A stretch of 64,000 nt of DNA from Streptomyces spongiae (GTDB lineage Bacteria > Actinomycetota > Actinomycetes > Streptomycetales > Streptomycetaceae): NCBI RefSeq assembly GCF_009377185.1, contig NZ_VJZC01000008.1, forward strand, positions 1 to 64,000, in the 5' to 3' direction. Position 1 is the stretch's first letter, and each line of letters opens with the position of its first letter. A program made the position numbers and the translations under genes. Of the stretch, positions 1 through 19,397 are shown piece after piece. The notes under the pieces are model-generated. The model did no database searches. It was not told the origin of the DNA and saw only the letters and a program-made list of their open reading frames with translations.

Positions 1-570
1 CACACAGTCGATGAAGACGACCGGGTAGACGCTGTCCAGCGGACGGTTCTGCCACTCCGTCATGCCGGCCATCACGCTGTCGGTGATCGTGGAGATCGTG
101 GACTTGGAGATTTCCGCGCCGTACACCTCGGCGAGATGCGCGGAGATCTCCCCGTGCGTGAGTCCTTTCGCCGACAGTGACAGGACCATCTCGTCCACGC
201 CGCCCAGACGCCGCTGCCGCTTCCTGACCAGCTGCGGCTCGAACGACCCGGACCTGTCCCGCGGCACTGCGATCTCGACCGGCCCCGATTCGGTGATCAC
301 CGTCTTGGAGCGATGCCCGTTGCGGTAGTTGTCCCGGCCGCCCTCGGCCCGCTCACCGGGCTCGTGCCCCAGATGATCAGTGAGCTCGCCCTCCAGCGCC
401 GACTCCAGCACCCGCTTCGTCAACTGCTGCAGGAGACCGCCTTCCCCGGTGAGCTTCACGCCACCGGCCTGGGCCCGGGCAACCAGCTCGGCGACCAGCC
501 CGTCGTCCACGGCGCCCGTCCCACTCACAGCGGCCTTCCCGGCCTCGGTGTCACTCGTCACGTCAGTCAT
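1..570 (-). CDS. IS256-family transposase, N-terminal part
   Basis: This is a DDE transposase of the IS256/mutator group and would catalyse movement of the element. About 190 residues are visible and the rest lies beyond the left edge. The ATG is at 568-570 (MTDVTSD). The translation then shows family hallmarks: LLQQLTKRVLESALEGE, LTDHLGHEPGE, NYRNGHRSKTV, VPRDRSGSFEPQLV, and VFIDCV just as the window ends, at the first catalytic aspartate. Whether the copy is complete cannot be told from here. It is intact over the visible part, so the element could still be active. Confidence 0.9.
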   Translation of the reverse strand, partial: MTDVTSDTEAGKAAVSGTGAVDDGLVAELVARAQAGGVKLTGEGGLLQQLTKRVLESALEGELTDHLGHEPGERAEGGRDNYRNGHRSKTVITESGPVEIAVPRDRSGSFEPQLVRKRQRRLGGVDEMVLSLSAKGLTHGEISAHLAEVYGAEISKSTISTITDSVMAGMTEWQNRPLDSVYPVVFIDCV

Positions 571-632
571 CAACTGTCGCTTCCAGCTTGGGAGTTACAC
601 CATCCACCGTACAGACCCCCACAGGGGACATG
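1..632 (-). mobile_element. IS256-family insertion sequence, right-hand part (runs off the window)
   Basis: The leftmost bases hold the 5' end of an IS256-type (mutator-type) transposase on the minus strand. They are followed, at about 590-632, by a short noncoding end that abuts a truncated casA. The exact terminus cannot be fixed without the other end. The likely inverted repeat lies in the stretch read on the minus strand as GGTCTGTACGGTGGATGG. The element has inserted into casA. Confidence 0.8.
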
Positions 633-633
633 A

Positions 634-1188
634 CCCCAGAGTGCGGGGGGTGCCTTTGCCGCAACGCCCGTAGTAGTGGTGGATGAGCAGGATCTGCAGG
701 GCGTCGGCGGTGGGAACGGGTTCGGCGGTGTGATGGCTGTGCGGACTGAACCAGGCCAAGTTGTTGCCGGCGGGGCGCCCGGGCACGAAGACGTTGATGC
801 CGGTGCTGTGGGGGCACTGGGTGCGCAGCGAGGGGTCCTGCAGCCAGGGCCGGACCAGGTCGAAGACGTCCCAGCCGTGCTGGTCGAAGTAGGCGTGGAC
901 GGCGTCTGGGTCGAAGCGGCCCTGGACCAGGCAGCGGCGGCGCAGGGCGTTCCATCGGGAGGCTGTGAGTTCGGGGTCGTCCAGGCCGGTGATCCGGGCG
1001 GTGATGGCGACCGCGACCCGCAGCAGCGCTGAGGCTGCCGGCGGGTGGGGCAGGGCGAGATCGTCGATGCGGTGGGCGTCCAGGAACAGGGTCCGCAGGC
1101 CCACTTGGTCGTACTGGTCACCGGAGCGGACGTCGATCCAGGGGCTGTCGGCTGCGCTGAACGTGGCGGGCGGGGGTAACGAGGGCAC
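634..1188 (-). pseudogene. casA: casA/cse1 (type I-E Cascade large subunit), truncated by the IS element
   Basis: This is the N-terminal third of Cse1/CasA (Cas8e), the large Cascade subunit that reads the PAM and recruits Cas3. The GTG at 1186-1188 opens MPSLPPPATFSAADSPWIDV. The family's N-terminal pattern follows: SPWIDVR, VGLRTLFLDAHRIDDLALP, VAITARITGLDD, WDVFDLVRPWLQDP and LLIHHYYG. Family members are usually about 500-550 residues. Here homology stops after about 185 codons, where IS256-type sequence begins, and the reading frame ends inside the IS. Any casB, cas7, cas5, cas6e, cas1 and cas2 would lie to the left of the window. The gene is presumed non-functional, so interference should be lost unless another copy exists. 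Confidence 0.85.
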
Positions 1189-1491
1189 GGGGGTGTCTTC
1201 CGGAAAGAGGGAGAAGCGTGAGGAGGCAGGGTGCGGGCCGCCGGGACCAGGGCATGTTCTCGGCTAGTTTGCTGCTGCGGGGCAACGCTGCGGCCGGGCC
1301 GAGCGCGGCCGGTGCTGTGCAGGGGATATCGCAGCGCCCTTGTGGGGCAGAGCGGTGTGCGATGTGCGACTGGGCGTTCGGTGGTGTGCGGCACAGCGAA
1401 TCATGTCGCCACAGCGCTTCGCGACCGGTGAGAAAGTCCGACTATCGAAGGGTGGCGTGATGCTTTCAGCCCTGAGTGTTACGTGCAGTGA
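1189..1491. other. Intergenic region between cas3 and casA
   Basis: This 303-bp stretch separates the cas3 stop from the casA start on the same strand. I found no convincing reading frame. It is unusually long for a cas operon junction, so it may hold a separate casA promoter. The purine-rich run at about 1200-1225 (minus strand CTCCCTC) does not make a good ribosome site for the GTG start. Confidence 0.4.
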
Positions 1492-4362
1492 TCATTGATG
1501 GTCTTTGCGGTGCAGGAGGCCGAGTTCTTCGTCCATGCGGAGCCAGTGATGGCCGAAACGCTGTTCACTCTCCCGTGTTGAAGAATCAGTGGGCAGCAGC
1601 ACGGTGTCGGCGAGAAGAGGATGCTTCTTCCAGCTTTCGGGCGGCTGATGCCGGTCGGAAGCGCGGGTGACCCAGGCGGCCGGGACAGGCAGTGTGTGTT
1701 CCAGGATGCTGCGCAGGTGGCGCCGGCTGAGGTGTTCCTGGTCCGGGAGCGGGAGAAGGCCGGCTGCGTCGAGGGTCAGGGTGCCCTCGGGGCCGCGGTA
1801 GCAGGGCAGCAGGCGGCGGGGCAGGATGCCGGGCCGGGTGGCCGCCTGGGCGGTGGTGAGGTGCTGACGGTGCAGGTCGGCCAGGGACGAGACCCGTATC
1901 GCCGGGGGCGCCAGGTGGATCGCGCTGAGCTGCTGCTGACGACTGGTGCGGGTCTGGTGGGTGGCTGCCATCTGCTGCAGACGCGTCGTTTCCCCCGCGA
2001 AACCGGAGGTGACACCGTGGACCTGTTCGACGAGGGCCTGGACATCGTCGGGTACAACAAGGGGTTCCTTCTCCAGGGTGAGGAGGAGCCGGGCGGTTTC
2101 GTGGAGGGTGACGGCGGGCTCGACCGTGCCCCACCCGGGCGGCAGAGCGGTCGCGCCGCGGGAGTTGACCGGGTTCAGCACCGTCAACGTCGGGCTGTTG
2201 TCACGGTCCCACCATGCGGGGCGGCGGTCCTGCCCGGCCCACAGACGGGTGAAGCGGCCCAGGCGCCCCAGGCGCTGCAGCAGGCGTGCCAGAGAAGCGA
2301 GATCGCTGACCATCAGGTCGACATCAATGTCCAGGCTCATGTCGAGGAGGCTGGTGGTGACGAAGACGAGGCGCGCCGGGCGCGGGCCGGCGGGCCCCAG
2401 CCGGTGGCGGAGGTCTCGCAGCGTGCTCTGCCGTCGCCACCCCCGGACCCGGGCGTGGACGAGGACCAGGTCGTGCGGTGGGCCGGTCCATGTACGGCAC
2501 AGGTATTGGTAGGTGTCCTGCGCGTCGGCGACGGTCGCGCACACCACGGCCGCGCATCCGCCGTGGCGGACCACCGGCTGGAGCGTGTCGGCGATCATGG
2601 CCAGGCGCTCCCCCGGGTCGACAGTGCGGCCGGTCTGTTCGAGGCGCCGGTAAGTGACCGGGCGGATGCGGATGTGAGCGGTCCTGCGCTGGGCGGCCCT
2701 TTGCCGGTCCTGGGCCGGTTCGGACATGCGGTGGGCGGTGGCGGTTGCCGCGTCCGCGAACAGCCACCCGGGGTAGCGGGGGGCGAACGAGGCACCGTGG
2801 AGACCTGTTTGGCCGGCTCCGGACAGGTACGCCCGTACCAGCTCGGTGGCGGTGGACGCAGGCATCGTCGCCGACAGCAAGACAACCGGACAGTTCAGGG
2901 CTCCCAGCCAGTGCAGCAGGCGCAGCAACTGGAGCTGGCTGAACGGGTCCAGCGCGTGGGCTTCGTCGACCACGACTGTCTTGCCCGACAGGGCCAGCAT
3001 GCGCAGCGCGCTGTAGCGGACGGGGAGGACAGCCATCTGTGCCTGGTCGGTGGTAGAGACGGTGTACTGGGCCAGGAGCGCGTTGTCCCCTCCGCGCAGC
3101 CATCGGTCAGGGCCGGCGGTGCCCGGGCCGGACTCCGTCTCGTCGCCAGCCGCAAGATCGTCCGGGTCGTCGGTGAACGGGCTGTCGGGTGGTCCGTCCA
3201 AAACGGACATGTCCGCCGGGGACAGGCGCCGGCCGGTGTAGGCCTCGTTGAGGTCGCTGTGGTGGTGCACCAGCATCACGGGGGCGTACTCGGGCTGGTG
3301 GGCGCGCACGTACCGGTCCAGGACCTCGTAGGCCTGGTCGGCGGCGGCCGTGGCCGGGAGCAGCCACATCACCCCCTGAGTGCCACAGTGCTCGTTGAAG
3401 ATCCGCGCCATCTCCAGGGCGGTCACGCTCTTTCCCGCCCCCATGGCATCCATGACCACCGCGATGCCACTCCCCCGCTCGGCGACCAGCCGCGGCAACT
3501 CCTCCATCACGGAGGCTTGAAGAGCGTTGGGTTCCTCAAGTCCCGGGTGGGCGGTGGTGAACGGGACCCGGTCCAAAGCGAAGCGGGTAAGGCCGAGCCG
3601 CTCGACCTCTTCCTCGGCCTGCTCGCGGGCGTGACTGTAGTGCTCGGCAGCCCCGAAGGACGGAGTGTCCGCGTTGGGCACCCAATACCGGCGCTGGCTC
3701 GCGACACGGTCGGCAACCATCGTCAGACCCGTGATCAGCACCGCCGCCTCGACCGACATCCGGTCCGGAGCCTCGTCGACACCGAACAGGTGCCACAGCA
3801 GCCGGGTGTAGCGGCGGCGCAGGTCCTGCCACACGGGTCCGCCCAGGGTGGCCTGCACCCGGTGGGCGGATGCCGCCCCGTCCACGTCGAGTTGCAGGAA
3901 CCGGCCGTGGTGCCCGCCCAGACCCTGAGCAGCACGGACGGCGGGACTGTCGTTACCGCCGACGGCGAATCCCAGCTCGCCCAGCAGATGCAGCCCCGCA
4001 TGCATCGACGCGCGTGCGTGCGGCACGTGCACCACCAGGCCCATGTCCGCCAGCAGGTCCTCCCCTAGCCGTATGCGTACTGAGGGCTCAAAGGACTGGA
4101 AACTCGGAATTAGCTTTCCGATGTCATGCATGGCAGCCAGGAAAGACACCAGCGAACGCGCATGCTCCTGCGAGACATCGAGCCCGGCGCTGATGACCTT
4201 ACGTTGGCTCGGGGTCAGGAACCGGTCCCAGAGCACCGCGGCCACCGCACCCACATCGATCAGGTGGAACAGCAGCGAATACACCCTCAGCGTCGCACGA
4301 TCGAACTTCCCGCAGGGACGACGGCTAACACCGTCGTACCGGGCGTCCTCAACAGCTCCCAT
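1492..4362 (-). CDS. cas3: CRISPR-associated helicase/nuclease Cas3 (HD + DExH), type I-E
   Basis: Cas3 is recruited by Cascade to unwind and degrade target DNA. The protein is about 956 residues, which is normal for the family. The N-terminal HD nuclease domain shows HLIDVGAVAAVLWDRF, AAMHDIGKLIPSFQ, HAGLHLLGELGF and GGHHGRF. The helicase domain has Walker A AMGAGKSVTALEMA, the DEAH box VVVDEAHALDPFSQ, motif III LLSATMPA, motif V near LLDMSLDIDVDLMVSDL, and motif VI LLQRLGRLGRF. I chose ATG 4360-4362 because family homology starts just after it. A TTG at 4410 would add 16 residues. cas3 diverges from the array and precedes casA. All motifs look intact, so cas3 survived while casA was destroyed. 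Confidence 0.93.
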   Translation of the reverse strand: MGAVEDARYDGVSRRPCGKFDRATLRVYSLLFHLIDVGAVAAVLWDRFLTPSQRKVISAGLDVSQEHARSLVSFLAAMHDIGKLIPSFQSFEPSVRIRLGEDLLADMGLVVHVPHARASMHAGLHLLGELGFAVGGNDSPAVRAAQGLGGHHGRFLQLDVDGAASAHRVQATLGGPVWQDLRRRYTRLLWHLFGVDEAPDRMSVEAAVLITGLTMVADRVASQRRYWVPNADTPSFGAAEHYSHAREQAEEEVERLGLTRFALDRVPFTTAHPGLEEPNALQASVMEELPRLVAERGSGIAVVMDAMGAGKSVTALEMARIFNEHCGTQGVMWLLPATAAADQAYEVLDRYVRAHQPEYAPVMLVHHHSDLNEAYTGRRLSPADMSVLDGPPDSPFTDDPDDLAAGDETESGPGTAGPDRWLRGGDNALLAQYTVSTTDQAQMAVLPVRYSALRMLALSGKTVVVDEAHALDPFSQLQLLRLLHWLGALNCPVVLLSATMPASTATELVRAYLSGAGQTGLHGASFAPRYPGWLFADAATATAHRMSEPAQDRQRAAQRRTAHIRIRPVTYRRLEQTGRTVDPGERLAMIADTLQPVVRHGGCAAVVCATVADAQDTYQYLCRTWTGPPHDLVLVHARVRGWRRQSTLRDLRHRLGPAGPRPARLVFVTTSLLDMSLDIDVDLMVSDLASLARLLQRLGRLGRFTRLWAGQDRRPAWWDRDNSPTLTVLNPVNSRGATALPPGWGTVEPAVTLHETARLLLTLEKEPLVVPDDVQALVEQVHGVTSGFAGETTRLQQMAATHQTRTSRQQQLSAIHLAPPAIRVSSLADLHRQHLTTAQAATRPGILPRRLLPCYRGPEGTLTLDAAGLLPLPDQEHLSRRHLRSILEHTLPVPAAWVTRASDRHQPPESWKKHPLLADTVLLPTDSSTRESEQRFGHHWLRMDEELGLLHRKDHQ

Positions 4363-4557
4363 CTCCACACGCTGCCACCTCGCGGAACCCACGACAACAT
4401 GATCACGCAAAAGCAGAGCAATCAGCCTCGCGCCCGCTAGAATCCACGCTCTGCCCGTACATCTCGTACGGCCTCAACCTCTGATGTGGCATCATTTTCG
4501 TAGCCGGTCGCAAGCAAATGACAGGCAAAGTGCCCAAGAGTGCCCAGGTCGAGAAGG
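4363..4557 (+). promoter_or_regulatory. CRISPR leader and divergent cas3/array promoter region
   Basis: This region lies between cas3 (leftward) and the best-conserved repeats of the array (rightward). It has a local A/T-rich patch, GGCATCATTTTCG, at about 4488-4500. Repeats are near-identical next to it and decay away from it, as expected for a leader end. The repeat orientation also matches type I-E crRNA polarity for rightward transcription. The leader call is inference; no integration-factor site was recognised. Confidence 0.6.
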
Positions 4558-5895
4558 GTAGAGCCCGCGCGAGCGGGAGTGACGCGTCCGGCCGCCCCCT
4601 ACGCATTTCCACCGGCACGTAGAGCCCGCGCGAGCGGGAGTGACGCGGCGGACGCTCCTGGTGCTCGGATCCGCCGTTTGCAGAGCCCGCGCGAGCGGGA
4701 GTGACGCGGCCATCCCACCGACCTCGCCGAGCTCCATGGCGTGGAGCCCACGCGAGCGGGAGTGACTCGGCGATATACTCCAAGTCCACTTCGACGTTCG
4801 GGTAGAGCCTGCGTGAGCGGGAGTGAATCGCCCTCCAGCCACACCAGTGACTCCGGCCGATAGTAGAGCCCGCGCGAGCGGGAGTGACGCACCATCCGGG
4901 CGTACGACCCGCCCGACATTCCGGTAGCGCCTCGGCGAGCGGGAGTGACCCAGACTTCCTGTCCAGGACGGTAACCGCCGCGTTGCAGCGCCCGCACGAG
5001 CAGGAGTGGCCGGCCGGGAGCAGAGCAAGTCCCCTGATTGGGGGAGAAGTTGGAGCCCGCGCGAGCGGGAGTGACGCGATCCTGCCCGGCCTCGAACTGC
5101 CGAGGACCTGTAGAGCCCGCGCGAGCGGGAGTGACGCGACCCGGAGGGGATCATTCGCGTTGCTGGCCAGGTAGAGCCCGCGCGAGCGGGAGTAACTGCG
5201 TCTCCAGGCCCTCTGTGTTCAGACGCAGGGGTACGGCAGGCGCTGGGCTGGAGTGGTCTCGGGGCCGAGCCCCGGCTGGCAACACCCGCGCCGTAGAGCC
5301 TGCGCGAGCAGGAGTGACCCGACCGCCCTGGCCGAACGGCCCGCACGTTCCTGGAGAGCCCGCGCGAGCGGGAGTGACACGCGGTCGCGCAGCTCAGGCG
5401 GCAGAGCGCGGCGGTAGAGCCCGCATGGGCGGGAGTGGCCCGAAGCCGTCGCGCCGGGCGAACTTGGGGTAAATCCCGCGCGAGCAGGCGCAACTCCGCT
5501 CCCTGGTCCTCTGTCTTCAGACACAAGGGCACGGCCCACACAGGGCTGGAGTATTCTCGAAGCCGAGACTCGGTTGGCAACACCCGTCAAGCCCGCGCAA
5601 GCGGGAGTGACTCGATCTGTCGGACGTCGTGGGGATTGTGGTGGACGTATAGAGCCCGCGCGAGCGGGAATGACGCGTCGGCCGCGACACCGGCGTCGCT
5701 GGTCACGTCGTAGAGCCTGCGCGAGCAGGAGTGCCCGACCGCCCTGGCCCGCACGTTCCTGTAGAGCCAGCGCGAGCGGGAGTGACTCATACCCCCTGGC
5801 GGCACCGAAGTTCTCCTCTCAGTAGCGCCCGCGCGAGCGGGGGTGCCTCGATCGACAACACGGGAGCATGCGGCCCGCGCAAGCCGGAGTGAGTC
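4558..5895 (+). CRISPR. Type I-E CRISPR array, about 20-22 repeats, strongly degenerate distally
   Basis: The repeats are 28 nt and begin GTAGAG, with an internal hairpin CCCGC-GCGA-GCGGG and an end GAGTGACGC. Spacers are mostly 32-33 nt, giving a 60-61 nt period. Repeat starts that I place: 4558, 4619, 4680, 4741, 4802, 4863, 4924, 4985, 5050, 5110, 5171, 5293, 5353, 5414, 5469, 5586, 5649, 5710, 5761, 5822 and 5868. Relics lie at about 5231 and 5529. The hairpin matches the type I-E repeat class. Repeats near 4558 are almost identical. Later ones carry substitutions in the stem and tail, and spacer length drifts (37, 27 and 18 nt). Transcription is probably rightward from the leader. Confidence 0.95.
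5201..5588 (+). repeat. Imperfect internal duplication inside the CRISPR array
   Basis: Segments 5201-5290 and 5498-5586 are diverged copies. Both contain CTCTGT-TTCAGAC, a relic repeat ending GGGCTGGAGT, a GCCGAG motif, and the tail TTGGCAACACCCG or CTGGCAACACCCG. The spacer after the first copy (5321-5352, starting GACCGCCCTGGCC) reappears at 5737-5760 with an internal 8-9 base loss. A block of the array was therefore duplicated and then decayed. Confidence 0.8.
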
Positions 5896-6167
5896 GTCGT
5901 CGATCGGTTCAAGGTGCAGCACATGCGAGCGGCGGTCGCCAGTGCTGTACTCATCGGCCATCGGACAGCCTGCTGACAAGTCTGCGACGGGCGGCACACG
6001 TGGACGGAGTGGCGCCACGTGGAGGTCACCTCACCGAACACCTTCAGAGCGAAACAGCAGGTCGCAGCCTTCTTCGTATTGTGATTCTCAGTGGAATGAA
6101 CAGGCAACTCTCAGATGCCTGCATCAACAGTTCTCATGTCATGTCTGACAGCAATCCCGCATCTCTC
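5896..6167. other. Intergenic region downstream of the array
   Basis: No gene is recognised here. The sequence follows the last relic repeat. Its right side is lower in GC, and I see neither a further repeat unit nor an RNA gene. Confidence 0.35.
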
Positions 6168-7877
6168 CTACCATCTAGCGGGCCATAGAGCCATCTCAAA
6201 TGACATCGGAATGAGGATCGCCCATGGCGGGGAAGTGAGAGTCAGCACATCGTCGCCGTTCATGCCGTGCAGCGGAACACGCGCGCACTGCGGTCCTAAT
6301 GCGGCTTCGTCACCTCGTCTTCGGGGGGGGGGGCGCAGCAGGACGGCCGCCATGGCGGCGGTGACGACCAAGCCGATGGCGGCGAGGGTCAGCACGGTGG
6401 TAAAGCCCTGATCGTAGGCCTGTTGTGCCGCGCGCAGTAGTGTCTGGGCGGTTTCGGACGGAAGGTGGGCGATGAGGTCCTCGGCGTGCGCGAACGATTC
6501 CTCGGCCGTCGCCCGCCCGTCCGGACCGAGCCCCGGTACCTGGGGCAGGCCGGTTCGGTACACGGCCGTCAGGACGGTGCCGAGGACGGCTACGCCGAGG
6601 CCCGCGCCGAGTTCGAAGGATGTCTCCTGGATGGCGGCTGCTTCCCCGGAGCGTTCCGGCTGCGCGGCGCTCATGATGGAGTCGGCGCCCAGGGTCATCA
6701 CGATGCCGGCGCCGTATCCCGCGCCCAGCAACGGCACGAGCAGCACTCCGTAGTGGGCGGTGTCGCCGACGGCGGCCATGGCAGCTAGGGCGGTGGCGAA
6801 GAGGGCGAGCGCCCCGGTGAGCGCCCACCGGTTGCCCCACCGGTTCGCGGCCCAGGGCGCTGTGACAGCGCCGATGGCGTTGGCGCCGGCCAGTGGCATC
6901 AGTGCGAGTCCGGCGCTCAGCGGCGAGTACTCGCCCACCTGCTGGAGCCACTGGGTGAGGAAGAACAGAAGGGCGACGTAGGAGCCAAAGCAGCCGATGA
7001 CGCACAAGGTGGCGGTGGTGAAGCGGCGTTCACGGAAGAGGGAGAAGTCCAGCAGCGGCTCGGCGATGCGCCGTTGACGGCGCACGAAGAGGTAGAGCAG
7101 GAGGCTTCCGGCGACGGCTGTGATGACGATGACGCCGTTCACCCCGGCGTGCTCGCCGGCCTGCTTGAGCGCGTAGACCACGCTGGCCAGGCCGGTGACG
7201 GACAGCGCCACACTGGCCAGGTCCCAGCGGCGGGGAACGGGGTTTTGGGACTCGGGGATGACCCGGGCGCCGACAGCCAAGATGACGACGATGACGGGCA
7301 CGTTGATCAAGAAGACCGCACCCCAGCCCCACTTCGCGGTGACCAGACCGCCGACCAGCGGACCGATCGTGGCGCCAACGCTGTGGGCGGCTGTCCAGAT
7401 GCCGATGGCGACGGCCCGTTCGCGGTCGTCGGTGAAGACGACCCTGATGATCGCCACCGTGGAGGCCATGATCATCGCCGCGCCGACTCCGAGCGCGGCG
7501 CGCGCGGCGATGAGTTGCGCCGTCGATGTCGAGAAGGCGGCCGCTGCCGAGGCGAAGCCGAAGGTGACAAAACCGCTGAGCACCATGCGGCGCCGGCCGA
7601 TCCGGTCGCCGAGGGTGCCGCAGGTCACGAGCAGGGCCGCGAGCGTGAGCGAGTAGACGTCGACAATCCACAGTAGCCCGGCGGGAGAGGGGTCGAGTTC
7701 CCGGCTCATGCTGGGTACGGCGACGTGCAGCACGGTGAGGTCGATACCGCACAGCAGCAGGCTGCCCGACACTACGGCCAGCACCAGCCACCGCCGCTTC
7801 GGTGGGGCGGCCGAAGGGTCCCTATGTTCGGTCTCTTCTATTGCTCGCACCGGTGCGGGCGCCTCCTTGTTTGACAT
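6168..7877 (-). CDS. MFS drug exporter, DHA2/QacA-EmrB type (14 TM)
   Basis: This is a proton-driven multidrug exporter of the inner membrane. From ATG 7875-7877 (MSNKEAP) the protein shows the DHA2 pattern: first helix LAVVSGSLLLCGIDLTVLHV, motif A GTLGDRIGRRRMV, and motif C GATIGPLVGGLVT. About 14 hydrophobic segments follow. A run of 11 G (6323-6333, C on the coding strand) lies near the 3' end. In the present frame the protein gains an unusual hydrophilic tail of about 40 residues. With 10, 12 or 13 bases it would stop within about a dozen codons, at the usual family length of about 525. The gene diverges from the HxlR regulator. Confidence 0.9.
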   Translation of the reverse strand: MSNKEAPAPVRAIEETEHRDPSAAPPKRRWLVLAVVSGSLLLCGIDLTVLHVAVPSMSRELDPSPAGLLWIVDVYSLTLAALLVTCGTLGDRIGRRRMVLSGFVTFGFASAAAAFSTSTAQLIAARAALGVGAAMIMASTVAIIRVVFTDDRERAVAIGIWTAAHSVGATIGPLVGGLVTAKWGWGAVFLINVPVIVVILAVGARVIPESQNPVPRRWDLASVALSVTGLASVVYALKQAGEHAGVNGVIVITAVAGSLLLYLFVRRQRRIAEPLLDFSLFRERRFTTATLCVIGCFGSYVALLFFLTQWLQQVGEYSPLSAGLALMPLAGANAIGAVTAPWAANRWGNRWALTGALALFATALAAMAAVGDTAHYGVLLVPLLGAGYGAGIVMTLGADSIMSAAQPERSGEAAAIQETSFELGAGLGVAVLGTVLTAVYRTGLPQVPGLGPDGRATAEESFAHAEDLIAHLPSETAQTLLRAAQQAYDQGFTTVLTLAAIGLVVTAAMAAVLLRPPPRRRGDEAALGPQCARVPLHGMNGDDVLTLTSPPWAILIPMSFEMALWPARW

Positions 7878-7966
7878 AGTCTCAGTTTCAGGGCGTACCA
7901 ACGCGGGCCACAAGTACGGTCTTTGGTGTCCCTTAGTGTCACGCTGTATACCAATGGAGGTCAGTC
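7878..7966. promoter_or_regulatory. Divergent promoter region between the MFS exporter and the HxlR gene
   Basis: This 89-bp gap serves both genes. It contains GGAGG at 7956-7960, which fixes the GTG start of the HxlR gene. A pair of GTGTC half-sites around 7927-7941 could be a regulator site. Autoregulation and exporter control by the HxlR protein are inferred from the arrangement. Confidence 0.45.
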
Positions 7967-8332
7967 GTGCGTTCCAGCGTCGAAGAAGCCCCGGATCACT
8001 GTGCGATCGAGTTCGCTATGGAGATGCTCGGGGGTCGTTGGAAGCTGGCCATTCTCAAGCAGCTGGTCGCGGGCACCCGTCGGTTCGGTGAACTCAGGCG
8101 CGCGCTACCGGGCATCACCCAGCGCATGCTGACCCGCCAGTTACGGGAACTGGAAGCCGACGGTCTGGTGGCGCGGACCGTGTACCGCGAAGTGCCGCCG
8201 CGGGTCGAGTACGCGCTCACCGAGGTCGGGCACAGCCTGGACTCCATCACAGAGGAACTGGACAAGTGGGGCCGCTGGTACCGCGAGACAATACGCCCCG
8301 AGGACCCGTCCGGCCCTCGCCCACCCGCGTGA
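7967..8332 (+). CDS. HxlR-family winged-helix regulator
   Basis: This is a 121-residue DNA-binding regulator. The full HxlR domain is visible: AMEMLGGRWKLAILKQLVAG, RRFGELRRALPGITQRML, LRELEADGLVARTVYREVPP, RVEYALTEVGHSL. A GGAGG lies seven bases before the GTG start. Relatives sense aldehydes, quinones or drugs and repress an adjacent divergent gene, so control of the neighbouring exporter is the simplest role. No cysteine is present near the N-terminus, so a thiol switch of the YodB/HypR kind is unlikely. Confidence 0.9.
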   Translation: MRSSVEEAPDHCAIEFAMEMLGGRWKLAILKQLVAGTRRFGELRRALPGITQRMLTRQLRELEADGLVARTVYREVPPRVEYALTEVGHSLDSITEELDKWGRWYRETIRPEDPSGPRPPA

Positions 8333-8359
8333 GCGGGGCGAAGGCCGGACGGTGCGGCG

Positions 8360-8971
8360 TCACAGTGTCGTACACACCTCGCTGTGGGACAAGCGGGGCC
8401 CACGCGGCCGCTCCCCGGAGCGCTCGGGCCGGCCGATGTTCACCACGAGCAGTGCCGAGAGGTCGCCGGACGGGAAGAACTCCCGGTTGACGCCGTCCTC
8501 GTCAAAGCCGCTCATGGGTCCGGCGGCCAAGCCCGCAGCCCGTATCCCGATGATGAAATAAGCGGCCTGCAGCGCACCGTTCAGCAACGCAGACCGTTCC
8601 CGTAGAGCGCGATTCTCGGCGTAAAGATCCGCAGCTCCGGGAAATCCGGGAAACAATCTGGAAAGGTTGCGGTGGAATTCGTTGTCCACCGCCAGCAGGG
8701 CAGTCAGCGGCGCCCGCAGGGTTTTCTCCCGGTTGCTCCGCGAGAGATGGACGGCCAGCCGTGTGCGGCTTTCCGAGGAGCGGAGCAGAAGAATCCTGAG
8801 GGGCTGCTGGTTGAAAGCGGTCGGGCCGTCGCGGACAAGGTCGTACACGGCCCGGATCGTCTCGTCGTCGACCGGTTCGCCGGTGAAGCGTTCGACGGTG
8901 CGCGCCCGCCTGAACAGCACGTCCTGGGCGCTTGCATCCAGGACCAGCCGGGGTTTCGTGGGGGTCGTCAT
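8360..8971 (-). CDS. Nitroreductase-family FMN protein, RutE/malonic semialdehyde reductase-like
   Basis: This is a 203-residue NAD(P)H:FMN oxidoreductase-fold protein. It opens with LFRRARTVERFTGEPVDDETI. The FMN-contacting segment GPTAFNQQPLRILLLRS and the RutE-like C-terminal block AGLAAGPMSGFDEDGVNREFF are both present, the latter typical of RutE (pyrimidine degradation, reduction of malonic semialdehyde). It starts 14 bp after the stop of the LLM monooxygenase, so the two form an operon. Other rut genes are absent. The pair may therefore serve another nitrogen heterocycle or xenobiotic, with this protein as reductase or flavin supplier. That role is inference. Confidence 0.85.
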   Translation of the reverse strand: MTTPTKPRLVLDASAQDVLFRRARTVERFTGEPVDDETIRAVYDLVRDGPTAFNQQPLRILLLRSSESRTRLAVHLSRSNREKTLRAPLTALLAVDNEFHRNLSRLFPGFPGAADLYAENRALRERSALLNGALQAAYFIIGIRAAGLAAGPMSGFDEDGVNREFFPSGDLSALLVVNIGRPERSGERPRGPRLSHSEVCTTL

Positions 8972-16062: not shown

Positions 16063-18393
16063 TCAGTCCCACCGCACCGTGACGGCGGTGGTCATCACCC
16101 TGGTGTGGTCGACCCCGCGTGTGTCGCCTTCGAGTCGCACCTGCACGGGGGAGCCCGGGTCGCCCGCCGACTGCGCCACGGTCAGCGTGATCGCACCGGG
16201 CTCGACGCGTCGGCGCAGATCCGTTCCCGTGAAGCTGGTCATGTCCGTGTGGACCTCGAACTCAACGGCACGGCTCTCACCGGCGGTGAGATCGACGCGG
16301 GTGAAGCCGATCAGCTGGCGGACGGGGCGGGTGACGGAGGCGACCGGGTCGGTGAGGTAGAGCTGGGGCACCAGCGTGCCCGCCCGGTCGCCGGTGTTGG
16401 AGACCGTGGCCCGTACGGTGATCGTCGCGTCGACCGCCACGACCGCTTCCTCGACGTCCACGTCCCCGATCTCGAAGGTCGTGTACGACAGGCCGTGCCC
16501 GAAGGGGAAAGCGGGTGTCGGGTCGATGTTGCTCACGCCGTCGCTCTTGAGGGCGAGCGGGGGCGCCAGGTAGGTGCCGGGCTGGCCTGCCGCGTCGCCC
16601 GGGATCTGGACGGGCAGGTGTCCGCAGGGGTTCACCCGCCCGGACAGGACGCCGGCGATCGCCACGGCACCCTCCTCGCCGGGGAAGAAGGCCTGCAGGG
16701 TCGCGTCCGCGGCGCGTGCGTGCCGGCCGATCGCGTACGGGCGGCCCGACACGACGACAAGCACGGCCCGTTGCGCGGTGGCGAGGACGGCCTCCACCAG
16801 GTCCTCCTGTACTCCGGGGAGCGTCAGCGCGCCGACGTCACAGCCCTCGCCCGAGGTGCCCTCCCCGAACATCCCGGAGCGGTCGCCCACGACGAGGACG
16901 GTCACGTCCGCCGCCGCGGCGGCGGCCACGGCCGCTTCGATGCCGTTGCGGTCGTCCCCTGTGATCGGGCACCCGGCCTCGTGGCGCACCACCGCGTCGG
17001 GGAACTCCTGTCGGATGGCGTCGAGGATCGTGGGGGCGTCAATGCCCATGGGAGTGTCGGGGTGGTGGGGCAGGACGTGGTTGGGGAAGGAGTAGCAGCC
17101 GAACAGGCAGCGAGTGTCGTCGGCGGCGGGGCCGATGACGGCGACGGAGCTCGGAGAGACGAGCGGCAGGACGGCCGCGTCGTTGTCGAGCAGTGTGACG
17201 GACTGCTCGGCGAGGCCGCGGGCCAGGGAGCGGTTGCGGGGCGAGTCGAAGCCCGCGGGCGCCGTGTACTGGCCGGGGTGCCAGTCGGGATCCAGCAGGC
17301 CGAGTCGGGCCTTCTGCTTCAGGACGCGCAACACCGCGCGGTCCAGCAGGTCTGCGGGGACGCTGCCGTTCTCCCGTAGGCAGCGCAGCGGTTCCCCGTA
17401 GCCCGAGGTGTGGGGCAGCTCGACATCGATGCCGGCGTGCAGCGCGGACCGTGCCGCACCGGGCAGGTCGGCGGCCACGTGGTGCATGGAAGCGAGGAAC
17501 ACGATCGACCAGTAGTCGGACACCACGGTGCCCTCGAACCCCCAGCGGTCGCGCAGGAGTCCGGAGAGCAGGGTGTCGTTGGCGCCGCAGGGTAGGCCGT
17601 CGACGTCGTTGTAGGCGTTCATCACCGAGTCCACGCGCCCGGTGACCACCGCCTTCTCAAATGGTAGGAGGATCACGTCGGCGAACTCCCGTGGACCGAC
17701 GGCGGCCGGGGCATGGTTGCGTGCCGCCCGCGAGGCGGAGTAGCCGGCGAAGTGTTTCACCGTGGCGACGACGCCGGACGACTGCAGCCCCTTCACGTAG
17801 GAGACACCGAGTTCGGAGACCAGGTAGGGGTCCTCACCGAGGGTCTCCTCCACCCGGCCCCAGCGGTAGTCGCGCACCACGTCCAGGACGGGGGCCAGAC
17901 CCTGGTGGACGCCGACGGCCGCCATGTCGGAACCGATCGCCGCCGCCATACGCCGCACGAGTTCCGGGTTCCAGGTGGCTGCCCAGGCGAGCGGGGTCGG
18001 GTAGACGGTGGCCTGCCAGGTGGTGAACCCGGTCAGGCACTCCTCGTGGGCGATGGCCGGGATACGGAATCGGTTCGCGGCGCACACCTGTTCCTGGAGT
18101 GCGGCCAGGCGCTCGCGGCCGGCCTCCGGAGCAACCGGAGCCGTGCCGAACACCCGGGTCAGGTGCCCGAGACCGTCGGCGATCGCTTCGTCGAAGCTCT
18201 CGGGGTCGCCGAAGCTGTCCTGCATCGGGGCCACGTCACCGGACGACGGTCTGAATCCCGGCCAGGTGCTGCCGAGCTGCGCGATCTTCTCGGACTCGGT
18301 CATGGCATCGAGCAGGGCTCGCGCGCGGACGGACGTCGGCAGAGCGCGGTCGTTCCACAGCCCGGTCGTCGGGCGTTCGTCGCTGATCGTCAA
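16063..18393 (-). CDS. GH3-family beta-glycosidase (beta-glucosidase/beta-xylosidase type), probably cytoplasmic
   Basis: This GH3 enzyme of about 776 residues hydrolyses terminal beta-linked sugars. It has no signal peptide, so it probably cuts imported oligosaccharides. Seen in order are IPAIAHEECLTGF, QGLAPVLDVVRDYRWGRVEETLGEDPYL (in two parts), the KHF motif VKHFAGYSA, nucleophile region EGTVVSDYWSI, the C-terminal alpha/beta sandwich with DVTVLVVGDRSGMFGEG, and an Fn3-like tail with NTGDRAGTLVPQLYL. I place the start at TTG 18391-18393; the long upstream extension would overlap the permease. It is the last transport-linked gene of the minus-strand operon. Its specificity is not settled by sequence. 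Confidence 0.87.
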   Translation of the reverse strand: MTISDERPTTGLWNDRALPTSVRARALLDAMTESEKIAQLGSTWPGFRPSSGDVAPMQDSFGDPESFDEAIADGLGHLTRVFGTAPVAPEAGRERLAALQEQVCAANRFRIPAIAHEECLTGFTTWQATVYPTPLAWAATWNPELVRRMAAAIGSDMAAVGVHQGLAPVLDVVRDYRWGRVEETLGEDPYLVSELGVSYVKGLQSSGVVATVKHFAGYSASRAARNHAPAAVGPREFADVILLPFEKAVVTGRVDSVMNAYNDVDGLPCGANDTLLSGLLRDRWGFEGTVVSDYWSIVFLASMHHVAADLPGAARSALHAGIDVELPHTSGYGEPLRCLRENGSVPADLLDRAVLRVLKQKARLGLLDPDWHPGQYTAPAGFDSPRNRSLARGLAEQSVTLLDNDAAVLPLVSPSSVAVIGPAADDTRCLFGCYSFPNHVLPHHPDTPMGIDAPTILDAIRQEFPDAVVRHEAGCPITGDDRNGIEAAVAAAAAADVTVLVVGDRSGMFGEGTSGEGCDVGALTLPGVQEDLVEAVLATAQRAVLVVVSGRPYAIGRHARAADATLQAFFPGEEGAVAIAGVLSGRVNPCGHLPVQIPGDAAGQPGTYLAPPLALKSDGVSNIDPTPAFPFGHGLSYTTFEIGDVDVEEAVVAVDATITVRATVSNTGDRAGTLVPQLYLTDPVASVTRPVRQLIGFTRVDLTAGESRAVEFEVHTDMTSFTGTDLRRRVEPGAITLTVAQSAGDPGSPVQVRLEGDTRGVDHTRVMTTAVTVRWD

Positions 18394-18578
18394 GGGTCGT
18401 CCATTTCTGTGGTGAGCGCAGGCGCGATCAAGCCCCGCGAGCGGTCTGGTGAAGGAGTCGACGAAGAGATGCGGGCAGCACCGAGAGGCAGGAGCGCTCG
18501 GGTCGACGATGTCCGGACCGGGTCCGGGCGATGGGCGTCGGAGGCTTGCCGGACCAGGCCCGAGCGGGCGTCGGTGGA

Positions 18579-19397
18579 TTACTTGCCGCCTGCACCCATC
18601 AGACCGGCGACGAGGGCCCGTCGCGCGAAGAGGTAGACGACGAGGATGGGGAGCGCGGACATCAGCACCGCGGCCAGCAGGGCCGGCACATTCGCCCCGT
18701 ACTCGGAGACGAAGTTGTACAGGCCCAGCGTCACCAGCTTGGTGTCCTCGGACTGGGTCATGATCAGCGGGAACAGGAAGCCGTTCCACGCCTGCAGGGC
18801 GGTGAAGACGGACGTCGTCGCGATCGCGGAGCGCGACATCGGCACGACCAGCTTCACGAGTGTCCTGGCGGGACTGGCGCCGTCCAGAGCCATTGCCTCG
18901 TACAGCTCGGACGAGATGTCCCGCATCCCGCCGCTGAGGACCAGCACGCTCACCGGCAGCGCGAACGCCGCGGTGGGCAGGACGATGCCCCAGAGGGTGT
19001 CGTAGAAACCGAGGTTGTTGACGATGAGGAAGAGCGGGATGATCACCGCCTGCGAGGGGATCGCCAGCCCCAGGAGGAACAGACGGAACACTCCCTTCGT
19101 AATCCAGCCTCGCCCGCGCACGACCGCGTAGCTGACCGGGATCGCGAGCGCCAGCACGATGGCGACCGTGGACGCCGCCACGACGAGGGTGTTCCAGATG
19201 TACTGCGGGAACCCGCTGTCCAGCACCGTGCGGAAGTTGTCCGCCGTCACCGCCGAGGGCAGGGAGACAGGGCCCTTGTCGGTGTACGTCGTCTGGGGCT
19301 GGACCGCCGTGTTCACCAGCGCGTACAGCGGGATGCCGATGATCAGGAGCCAGACGAACGCCGCGGCGCCGGCCGCGTAGTTGGGGCGTGTTCTCAC
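18579..19397 (-). CDS. Carbohydrate ABC transporter permease, MalG type
   Basis: This is the inner-membrane subunit of a CUT1-type oligosaccharide importer, 272 residues with six predicted helices. The EAA loop is visible as YEAMALDGASPARTLVKLVV. The GTG start at 19395-19397 overlaps the stop of the partner permease by four bases (GTGA), so they are translationally coupled. A long open frame continues upstream but is only the other frame of the partner gene. No ATPase is encoded here; such systems usually share MsiK. Confidence 0.92.
   Translation of the reverse strand: MRTRPNYAAGAAAFVWLLIIGIPLYALVNTAVQPQTTYTDKGPVSLPSAVTADNFRTVLDSGFPQYIWNTLVVAASTVAIVLALAIPVSYAVVRGRGWITKGVFRLFLLGLAIPSQAVIIPLFLIVNNLGFYDTLWGIVLPTAAFALPVSVLVLSGGMRDISSELYEAMALDGASPARTLVKLVVPMSRSAIATTSVFTALQAWNGFLFPLIMTQSEDTKLVTLGLYNFVSEYGANVPALLAAVLMSALPILVVYLFARRALVAGLMGAGGK

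Follow-up and report, generated by a model that had tools for sequence, protein, structure and literature searches.

What kind of locus keeps cas3 and a type I-E array of clustered regularly interspaced short palindromic repeats (CRISPR) while its casA gene stops short beside an IS256-family insertion sequence (IS), and what was lost at that point? The question was raised by a stretch of DNA from Streptomyces spongiae (assembly GCF_009377185.1, contig NZ_VJZC01000008.1), a draft genome of 11.3 Mb in 1,114 contigs. The window, as we call the whole stretch analysed, comprises the first 64,000 bases of this contig of 68,349 bases (C1004). An earlier note had described positions 1–4362 as a type I-E interference unit in which casA breaks off next to an IS256-type element, with cas3 and the array kept, and the PF09481 fragment, the PF00872 match and the intact cas3 frame bore this out (Table 1). 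The feature reaches further than 4362, with the array extending to 5896 and a transposon end at 6247, and the mobile nature of the locus was missed by that note. Because relatives carry tnsB and tnsC and the window holds a transposon end, what broke was a mobile element rather than an ordinary immune locus of the host. We consider it quite probable that the locus is the array-side part of a tnsB/tnsC-linked I-E mobile element, apparently an I-E5 CRISPR-associated transposon (CAST) of telomeric transposons, inserted at 6247/6248 beside a major facilitator superfamily (MFS) gene; that the rest was lost beyond the IS256-family element; that this copy is inert; and that its intact relatives attack competitors.

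The gene order of the relatives carries much of this reading. A scan with cas3 yielded five loci, in S. dysideae (96%), S. tauricus (95%), S. sindenensis and S. sp. AC512 (85%), and S. wuyuanensis (66%), and all named cas3 relatives were Streptomyces. In each of the five, cas6e is followed by a transposase of 508–519 amino acids with a Mu-transpos_C domain (tnsB) and then by an AAA-type ATPase (tnsC), the latter recognized by its domain in four loci and by tblastn in L011; DNA homology among the five ends just past the ATPase, running ca. 470 bases further for L009 and L013. With L009 as the tblastn query, the order cas3-casA-casB-cas7-cas5-cas6e-tnsB-tnsC was recovered in L010, L011, L012, L013, G142, G288, G028 and G408, and as a ninth locus on a linear plasmid of S. 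sp. BB1-1-1. G277 and L009 matched at 96% both in cas3 and from casA to tnsC, and tnsB-tnsC followed cas6e in 11 relatives in all. Since these 11 loci were chosen for cas3 or TnsB similarity, the count measures conservation within a clade, not frequency; it excludes plasmid Cas3 proteins at 33–40% and the distant Cas3 matches among 61 relatives, 21 of which had some Cas3 match, mostly a distant one. No TniQ or TnsD was found among the downstream frames of L009 covered by a non-exhaustive scan, and none was annotated in the BB1-1-1 stretch. A plasmid of S. cadmiisoli (NZ_CP030074.1, 916593–926339) carries cas3 (50%) and tnsB (49%) ca. 5 kb apart and ca. 44 kb from the record end, and probably represents a more remote element of this kind. 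In L013, tnsC is followed by a GmrSD-type restriction gene (16908–19328), partly common to L009, which is possibly cargo.

The transposon end provided the second line of evidence. Beyond the array, a stretch with TTCTCA-like boxes ending in TGAGAGTCAGCA is common to the window, L009, L010, L013 and G277 (in L013 the version is TGAAAGTCAGCA), and the outside DNA past this end differs in each: the neighboring gene is an MFS transporter in the window, a helix-turn-helix protein in L009 and an aldose epimerase frame in L010. When window 6030–8700 was used as the query, the match to G154 covered 6030–6247 and stopped there, and matches to host-type DNA began at 6260 (G363) and 6270 (G157); host DNA begins at 6248 in the window. 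The same end occurs in BB1-1-1 and, with one change, in G028 and G408. In L010 the stretch lies in two pieces (4572–4662 and 3613–3671), apparently split by another insertion, and the L011 array reaches near the start of its contig. Window 6030–6247 thus has the properties of a transposon end, and a shared end with differing outside DNA indicated that this kind of element has moved and that the window retains one end. G154 (contig C14, L171 4146–4361) carries a window-like end in a genome where TnsB was not found at E ≤ 1e-60; this may be a solo end or a remnant. Two insertion sites deserve mention. The CRISPR transposon of G408 sits within the tnsC homologue of a second telomeric-type transposon, and a tnsB piece of that second transposon comes next (L118 2162–3293, end near 2174, ca. 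92.2 kb), one telomeric element being nested in another. In G277 (L097 5592–7754), an open frame with a TniQ domain starts 34 bases outside the inner end of the element.

Among the I-E effector genes, the window holds only cas3 and the casA fragment. The casA/Cse1 homology (PF09481, 5.8e-25) spans profile positions 4–158 of 450. The earlier note's statement that cas3 keeps its HD and helicase motifs held: the 972-amino-acid open frame showed Cas3_HD, Cas3 C-terminal and helicase-type domains in a profile search, its HD nuclease is intact (PF18019, 7.1e-35), and it contains HDIGK, DAMGAGKS, DEAHA, LSATMP and QRLGRLGR, which read as Cas3 HD and helicase motifs. The ratio of non-synonymous to synonymous substitution rates against L009, L013 and G277 was 0.26–0.28, and on the window branch, with codons polarised by L010, 14 synonymous changes stood against one non-synonymous change. 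By these values cas3 shows neither decay nor relaxation, which fits a recent break and says nothing of selection for or after it. Another copy is decayed: a cas3 relative lies in pieces in L017 and its neighbors (G019 contig C1, 226149–227803).

What the window lacks was not recovered elsewhere in the draft genome. The single Cse1 match was the fragment itself, so the second intact casA that the earlier note had proposed to look for did not turn up. Neither Cas7 (PF09344) nor Cas1 (PF01867) was found in the own genome, by searches that were positive in 2 and 9 of 14 named genomes, respectively, and TnsB was absent at E ≤ 1e-60. With the 9.2-kb S. dysideae DNA from casA to past tnsC as query, the matches amounted to the fragment already known plus a 57-base stretch at 78%, among the 40 candidates scored of 477; the absence of Cse2, Cas5 and Cas6e is taken from this one search. 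The remainder of casA and the downstream genes, which the earlier note had hoped to locate, were not found in this assembly, and it does not encode the complete Cascade complex (Cse1, Cse2, Cas7, Cas5 and Cas6e) of a functional I-E system, as Cse1 is truncated and Cas7 absent from the own genome.

The break point itself lies near the contig edge. Position 1 of the window is the contig start, and C1004 therefore begins within the IS256-family element. The transposase N-terminus (1–573, minus strand) matched PF00872 (1.3e-46), marking it as a Mutator-type transposase of the IS256 family, and NF033543 (6.9e-41), with a score of 140 bits that fell under the NCBIfam cut-off of 150 because only 191 amino acids of the transposase are present. 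The outer end at 618, GGGTCTGTACGGT, is shared with related elements of ca. 1,374 bp in other genomes, and the own-genome copies diverge at the equivalent position (C952, C180) or two bases later (C260). Own-genome matches comprised three right ends and three left ends, each of 127 bp, which we read as assembly overlaps at contig ends; the left ends (C230, C299 and C762) came from a search in which 40 of 148 candidates were scored. None of the three bears a target-duplication mate for the right end of C1004 (CCACAGGG), so the 8–9 bp target duplication of the IS256 family, which the earlier note had suggested looking for at the other IS end, was not seen at this insertion. Another copy, C180/C230, pairs over 8 bp (GGACCGTG), and C260/C299 nearly pair, with 7 nt in common, shifted by one; among the three left ends compared, the right end of C952 likewise found no mate and C762 paired with none. 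C762 was considered as the partner of the C1004 IS end and rejected, as nothing links the two. On C762, a frame of 417 amino acids (L107 323–1576) adjoins the unpaired left end; its start, we presume, resembles a TIR domain.

According to the earlier note, casA ended exactly at the IS after about 185 codons. The truncation was confirmed, at 184 codons, whereas "exactly" was off by 17 nt, because the casA alignments to relatives end at 635–641. The intervening bases (619–635) match neither the relatives' casA nor the flanks of other IS copies, have no copy elsewhere in the window (≤3 mismatches) and no exact copy in 175 loci, and have one exact match in IMG/VR. A plasmid search with 580–700 returned casA pieces, IS pieces and a few unrelated short matches. 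The 17 nt are possibly the scar of an earlier event. A simple IS jump into casA with target duplication was rejected on account of this gap and the lack of a mate among the three left ends. Given both, the IS insertion that the earlier note had put forward as the cause of the casA break is unproven; a deletion or rearrangement at the IS would be the simplest reading.

Table 1. Features at the array-side end of the broken element and its borders (positions in the window).
Feature	Position	Strand	Basis
Right part of IS256-family element, clipped by contig start	1-618	-	Transposase frame 1-573; PF00872, NF033543; outer end 618
17 nt between IS and casA, part of neither	619-635	.	Alignments and flank comparisons
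casA/cse1 5' fragment, 184 codons, no internal stop	636-1188	-	PF09481; alignment to relatives
cas3, intact 972-aa frame	1492-4410	-	Open frame, domains, motifs
Intergenic stretch between divergent cas3 and array, presumed leader	4411-4558	.	Position only
CRISPR array, 21 repeats found, many degenerate, spacer lengths uneven	4559-5896	+	Repeat search; relatives' arrays
Spacer 5	4831-4863	+	Matches ttrA-type helicase genes, motif TAG
Spacer 7	4953-4985	+	Matches tnsB of other telomeric-type transposons, motif AAG
Spacer 12	5322-5353	+	Weak match downstream of foreign tnsB (tnsC region), motif AAG
Spacer 16	5615-5649	+	Matches tnsB of TnsABC-TniQ element on linear plasmid, motif CAG there
Transposon end, last bases TGAGAGTCAGCA	6030-6247	+	Common to relatives; G154 homology from 5952
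MFS transporter frame, last part 6168-6247 read out of transposon end	6168-7913	-	PF07690

The array suggested what the intact elements may be directed against. For eight of the 21 window spacers, other arrays contain relatives at ≤5 mismatches. A promoter scan of the intergenic stretch between cas3 and the array (4411–4558) found none. Two "spacers" of ca. 90 nt (5200–5293 and 5498–5586) resemble two spacers around a decayed repeat, and similar units occur in L009, L013 and G277. At E ≤ 0.01, the window array matched 71 plasmid records; among the 30 matches listed, one was another array (BB1-1-1) and 29 were to spacer 5. Of those 29, 20 fell on an annotated helicase, 19 lay within 4 kb and 24 within 16 kb of the record end, and one was mid-record. 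Phages gave no match to the window array at E ≤ 0.1. Two of the matched helicases have DEAD and helicase-associated domains, in agreement with the account of ttrA in an excerpt of PMC8743542. In 392 genomes of the genus, spacer 5 matched at ≤3 mismatches in 43, one match being its own array, and its reversed form gave none among the matches listed. Among 54 other places listed for spacer 5, 20 start within 4 kb of the first base of the contig, a distance counted from contig starts only, and draft contig starts need not be telomeres.

Similar targets were matched by other arrays. Of 147 distinct spacers from seven arrays, five variants (three sites) matched 30 ttrA-context loci at ≤7 mismatches, and none of the 147 did when reversed; the loci had been fetched with a spacer of which two of the five are variants, and the other three (L121 and L011; two sites) are independent. 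The motif preceding these matches was TAG in 30 of 30 cases for spacer 5, AAC (19) and AAG (7) for one spacer, and AAG for the others. A scan of eight stretches at ≤8 mismatches yielded 24 matches, a few of them at 8 mismatches and outside ttrA; shuffled spacers gave one. In its own genome the window array had no second match at E ≤ 0.001 among the 40 candidates scored of 113, and the one spacer searched singly, spacer 5, matched only itself at ≤3 mismatches; the earlier note's suggestion of a selected shut-off, through self-targeting or otherwise, thus found no support.

Rival transposons formed the other group of targets. Against 30 tnsB loci fetched by TnsB similarity, without use of spacers, 11 variants (four sites) among 154 spacers matched, with AAG before most and AAA before some, and no reversed spacer did. 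A spacer of the G408 array matched a foreign tnsB at four mismatches after AAG (best reversed, 11). In the window, spacers 5 (2e-11), 7 (2e-8) and 16 (6e-6) had clear matches and spacers 12 (3e-4) and 18 (7e-4, resembling 12) weak ones; fuller variants of spacer 12 occur in L009 and G277. At E ≤ 0.05, 9 of the 21 real spacers matched versus 5 of the 21 reversed (best reversed, 0.005), in a target set that was partly fetched via spacer 5 and the L013 relative of spacer 16, only the tnsB set (spacers 7 and 12) having been fetched spacer-free. The arrays of L010, L121 and L013 matched 73, 55 and 22 plasmid records, respectively; among the matches listed (25, 25 and 15) were helicases, a "putative terminal protein", XRE-type regulators, an ATP-dependent helicase, an MFS gene and tnsB genes. 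Four plasmid target sites were opened, and two proved to be tnsA-tnsB-tnsC clusters, 8–20 kb from the plasmid end. At ≤7 mismatches, no spacer of any array tested matched its own operon, the window being testable in this respect only for cas3, the casA fragment and the IS.

Relatives of the transposase often lie near chromosome ends. TnsB relatives (E ≤ 1e-60; up to three candidates scored per genome) were present in 87 of the 392 genomes. In 16 of 20 single-contig genomes with a match, one lay within ca. 200 kb of an end, and nine had them at both ends (our own count, with rounded sizes), the exceptions being G007, G134, G142 and G277. The G408 element lies ca. 82 kb from the left chromosome end; this genome also has a right-end TnsB.

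By this reading, the IS256-family element would mark the point at which the 3' part of casA, casB, cas7, cas5, cas6e, tnsB, tnsC and whatever lay beyond were lost. Without Cascade, no CRISPR RNA (crRNA) complex would form and Cas3 would not be recruited, and without TnsB and TnsC the element would be immobile. Lacking both Cascade and transposase, the copy in the window is expected to be inert. In relatives that are still intact, an old array that changes slowly would supply crRNAs that steer Cascade and an active Cas3 to the genes of competitors, namely tnsB and tnsC of other telomeric or Tn7-like transposons and ttrA near replicon ends, while TnsB and TnsC would act on the element's own end. 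We tentatively propose that the I-E systems of these transposons may be weapons rather than, or besides, insertion guides, Cas3 cutting rival telomeric transposons (tnsB, tnsC), TnsABC-type elements of linear plasmids and ttrA or terminal-protein genes near the ends of linear replicons. The own operon would be spared, and old spacers would be kept across species because the rivals persist; the window would then hold such an element minus Cascade and transposase. With an intact Cas3, homing is no more likely than an attack on rivals, and both may hold.

In a classical CAST, by contrast, crRNAs would guide insertion of the element beside its targets, so that it homes to telomere-proximal genes, an explanation that we find rather doubtful. 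The shared spacers that match ttrA near linear replicon ends would suit it, and an excerpt of PMC12669027 places I-E5 among CASTs; however, an intact Cas3 would cut the target, and no convincing spacer match was found outside the inner end in five loci at 400 bp, in six loci at 3 kb or in G408, a result that leaves RNA-guided insertion there unsupported, though indirectly and for the array side only. Two related G408 spacers matched at six mismatches ca. 15.9 kb from the left chromosome end, with motif ACG and no control. Several observations weigh against our own interpretation. The best outside match of L009 scored slightly above controls (0.70 versus a shuffled maximum of 0.67; 9 mismatches of 32 versus 11 reversed), and we did not count it as a match. 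The G408 element within a rival tnsC homologue and the G277 element beside a TniQ-domain frame are insertions near rival genes that fit guidance too. CRISPR-bearing elements are not all near ends: that of G277 lies at 334 kb, that of G142 mid-contig and that of BB1-1-1 ca. 166 kb from one end of a 452-kb plasmid; the window, from a draft contig, gives no telomere distance. At ≤1 mismatch, the end motif was absent from L012, G142 and G288, for which little DNA was available on that side. Most spacers match nothing tested, and since the genome is a draft, the missing part could sit in an assembly gap.

Two other explanations appear much less probable. An ordinary host I-E immune locus, inactivated by simple IS256 insertion in casA and perhaps selected for self-targeting, would account for the casA truncation beside an IS256-family end and for the intact cas3, yet it is very improbable in view of the 17 nt between IS and casA, the lack of a duplication mate among three left ends, the downstream genes missing from the assembly, the tnsB-tnsC pair in place of cas1-cas2 in relatives and the absence of any self-target found. 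TnsB and TnsC could instead form an alternative spacer-acquisition module that replaces Cas1-Cas2 without transposition, as suggested by Faure 2019 according to an excerpt of PMC12231136. The uneven spacer lengths, and the fact that no cas1 or cas2 is annotated in the 32.7-kb BB1-1-1 stretch (the PLSDB gene tables are incomplete), are compatible with such a module, but it would leave unexplained both the shared transposon end with differing outside DNA and the TnsB relatives in 87 of 392 genomes, often near chromosome ends, and we hold it to be highly unlikely.

Taken alone, the window copy is a probably inert remnant of modest interest. What is gained is a concrete transposon end for tnsB/tnsC-linked I-E loci, in which Faure 2019 (in the excerpt of PMC12231136) reported flanking terminal structures to be lacking, together with spacer matches to transposase genes of rivals and to genes close to telomeres. 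Most of these matches follow AAG or TAG, and the arrays concerned have spacers in common across species. Whether these systems are weapons or insertion guides becomes a directly testable question. In the excerpts compared, we found no published account of the shared end and the rival-directed spacers; Hsieh 2025 itself stood outside the comparison, and no priority is claimed.

Comparisons with known systems were drawn from excerpts of the papers cited. Type I-E is listed among the subtypes captured by Tn7-like transposons (PMC11656645). The nearest description is that of I-E5 (PMC12669027, citing Hsieh 2025), which belongs to telomeric transposons and is a CAST that has no TniQ-TnsD and keeps the HD domain of Cas3 active; the type and the HD domain are alike, as far as the citing paper's description goes, the lack of TniQ and the link to telomeres may be, and the window copy differs in being without most of Cascade and all transposase genes. 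PMC13228271 does no more than cite Hsieh 2025. The Streptomycetaceae I-E loci of Faure 2019 (PMC12231136) likewise combine cas3-cas8e-cse2-cas7-cas5-cas6 with tnsB and tnsC in place of cas1-cas2; they were reported to lack flanking terminal structures, and alternative adaptation was suggested, whereas here a transposon end is shared. CasMu-I and CasMu-V (PMC10910872) also link a CRISPR effector to a Mu-type transposase and an ATPase, but those are I-A and V systems that have lost nuclease function, unlike the I-E system with intact Cas3 seen here. The active I-E system of S. avermitilis (PMC4762764) shares the genus, the type and AAG, its protospacer adjacent motif; it has eight cas genes and acquires spacers, and tnsB and tnsC are not mentioned in the excerpt. 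The element kind is thus already known, and the window holds a broken copy of it that is most likely inert.

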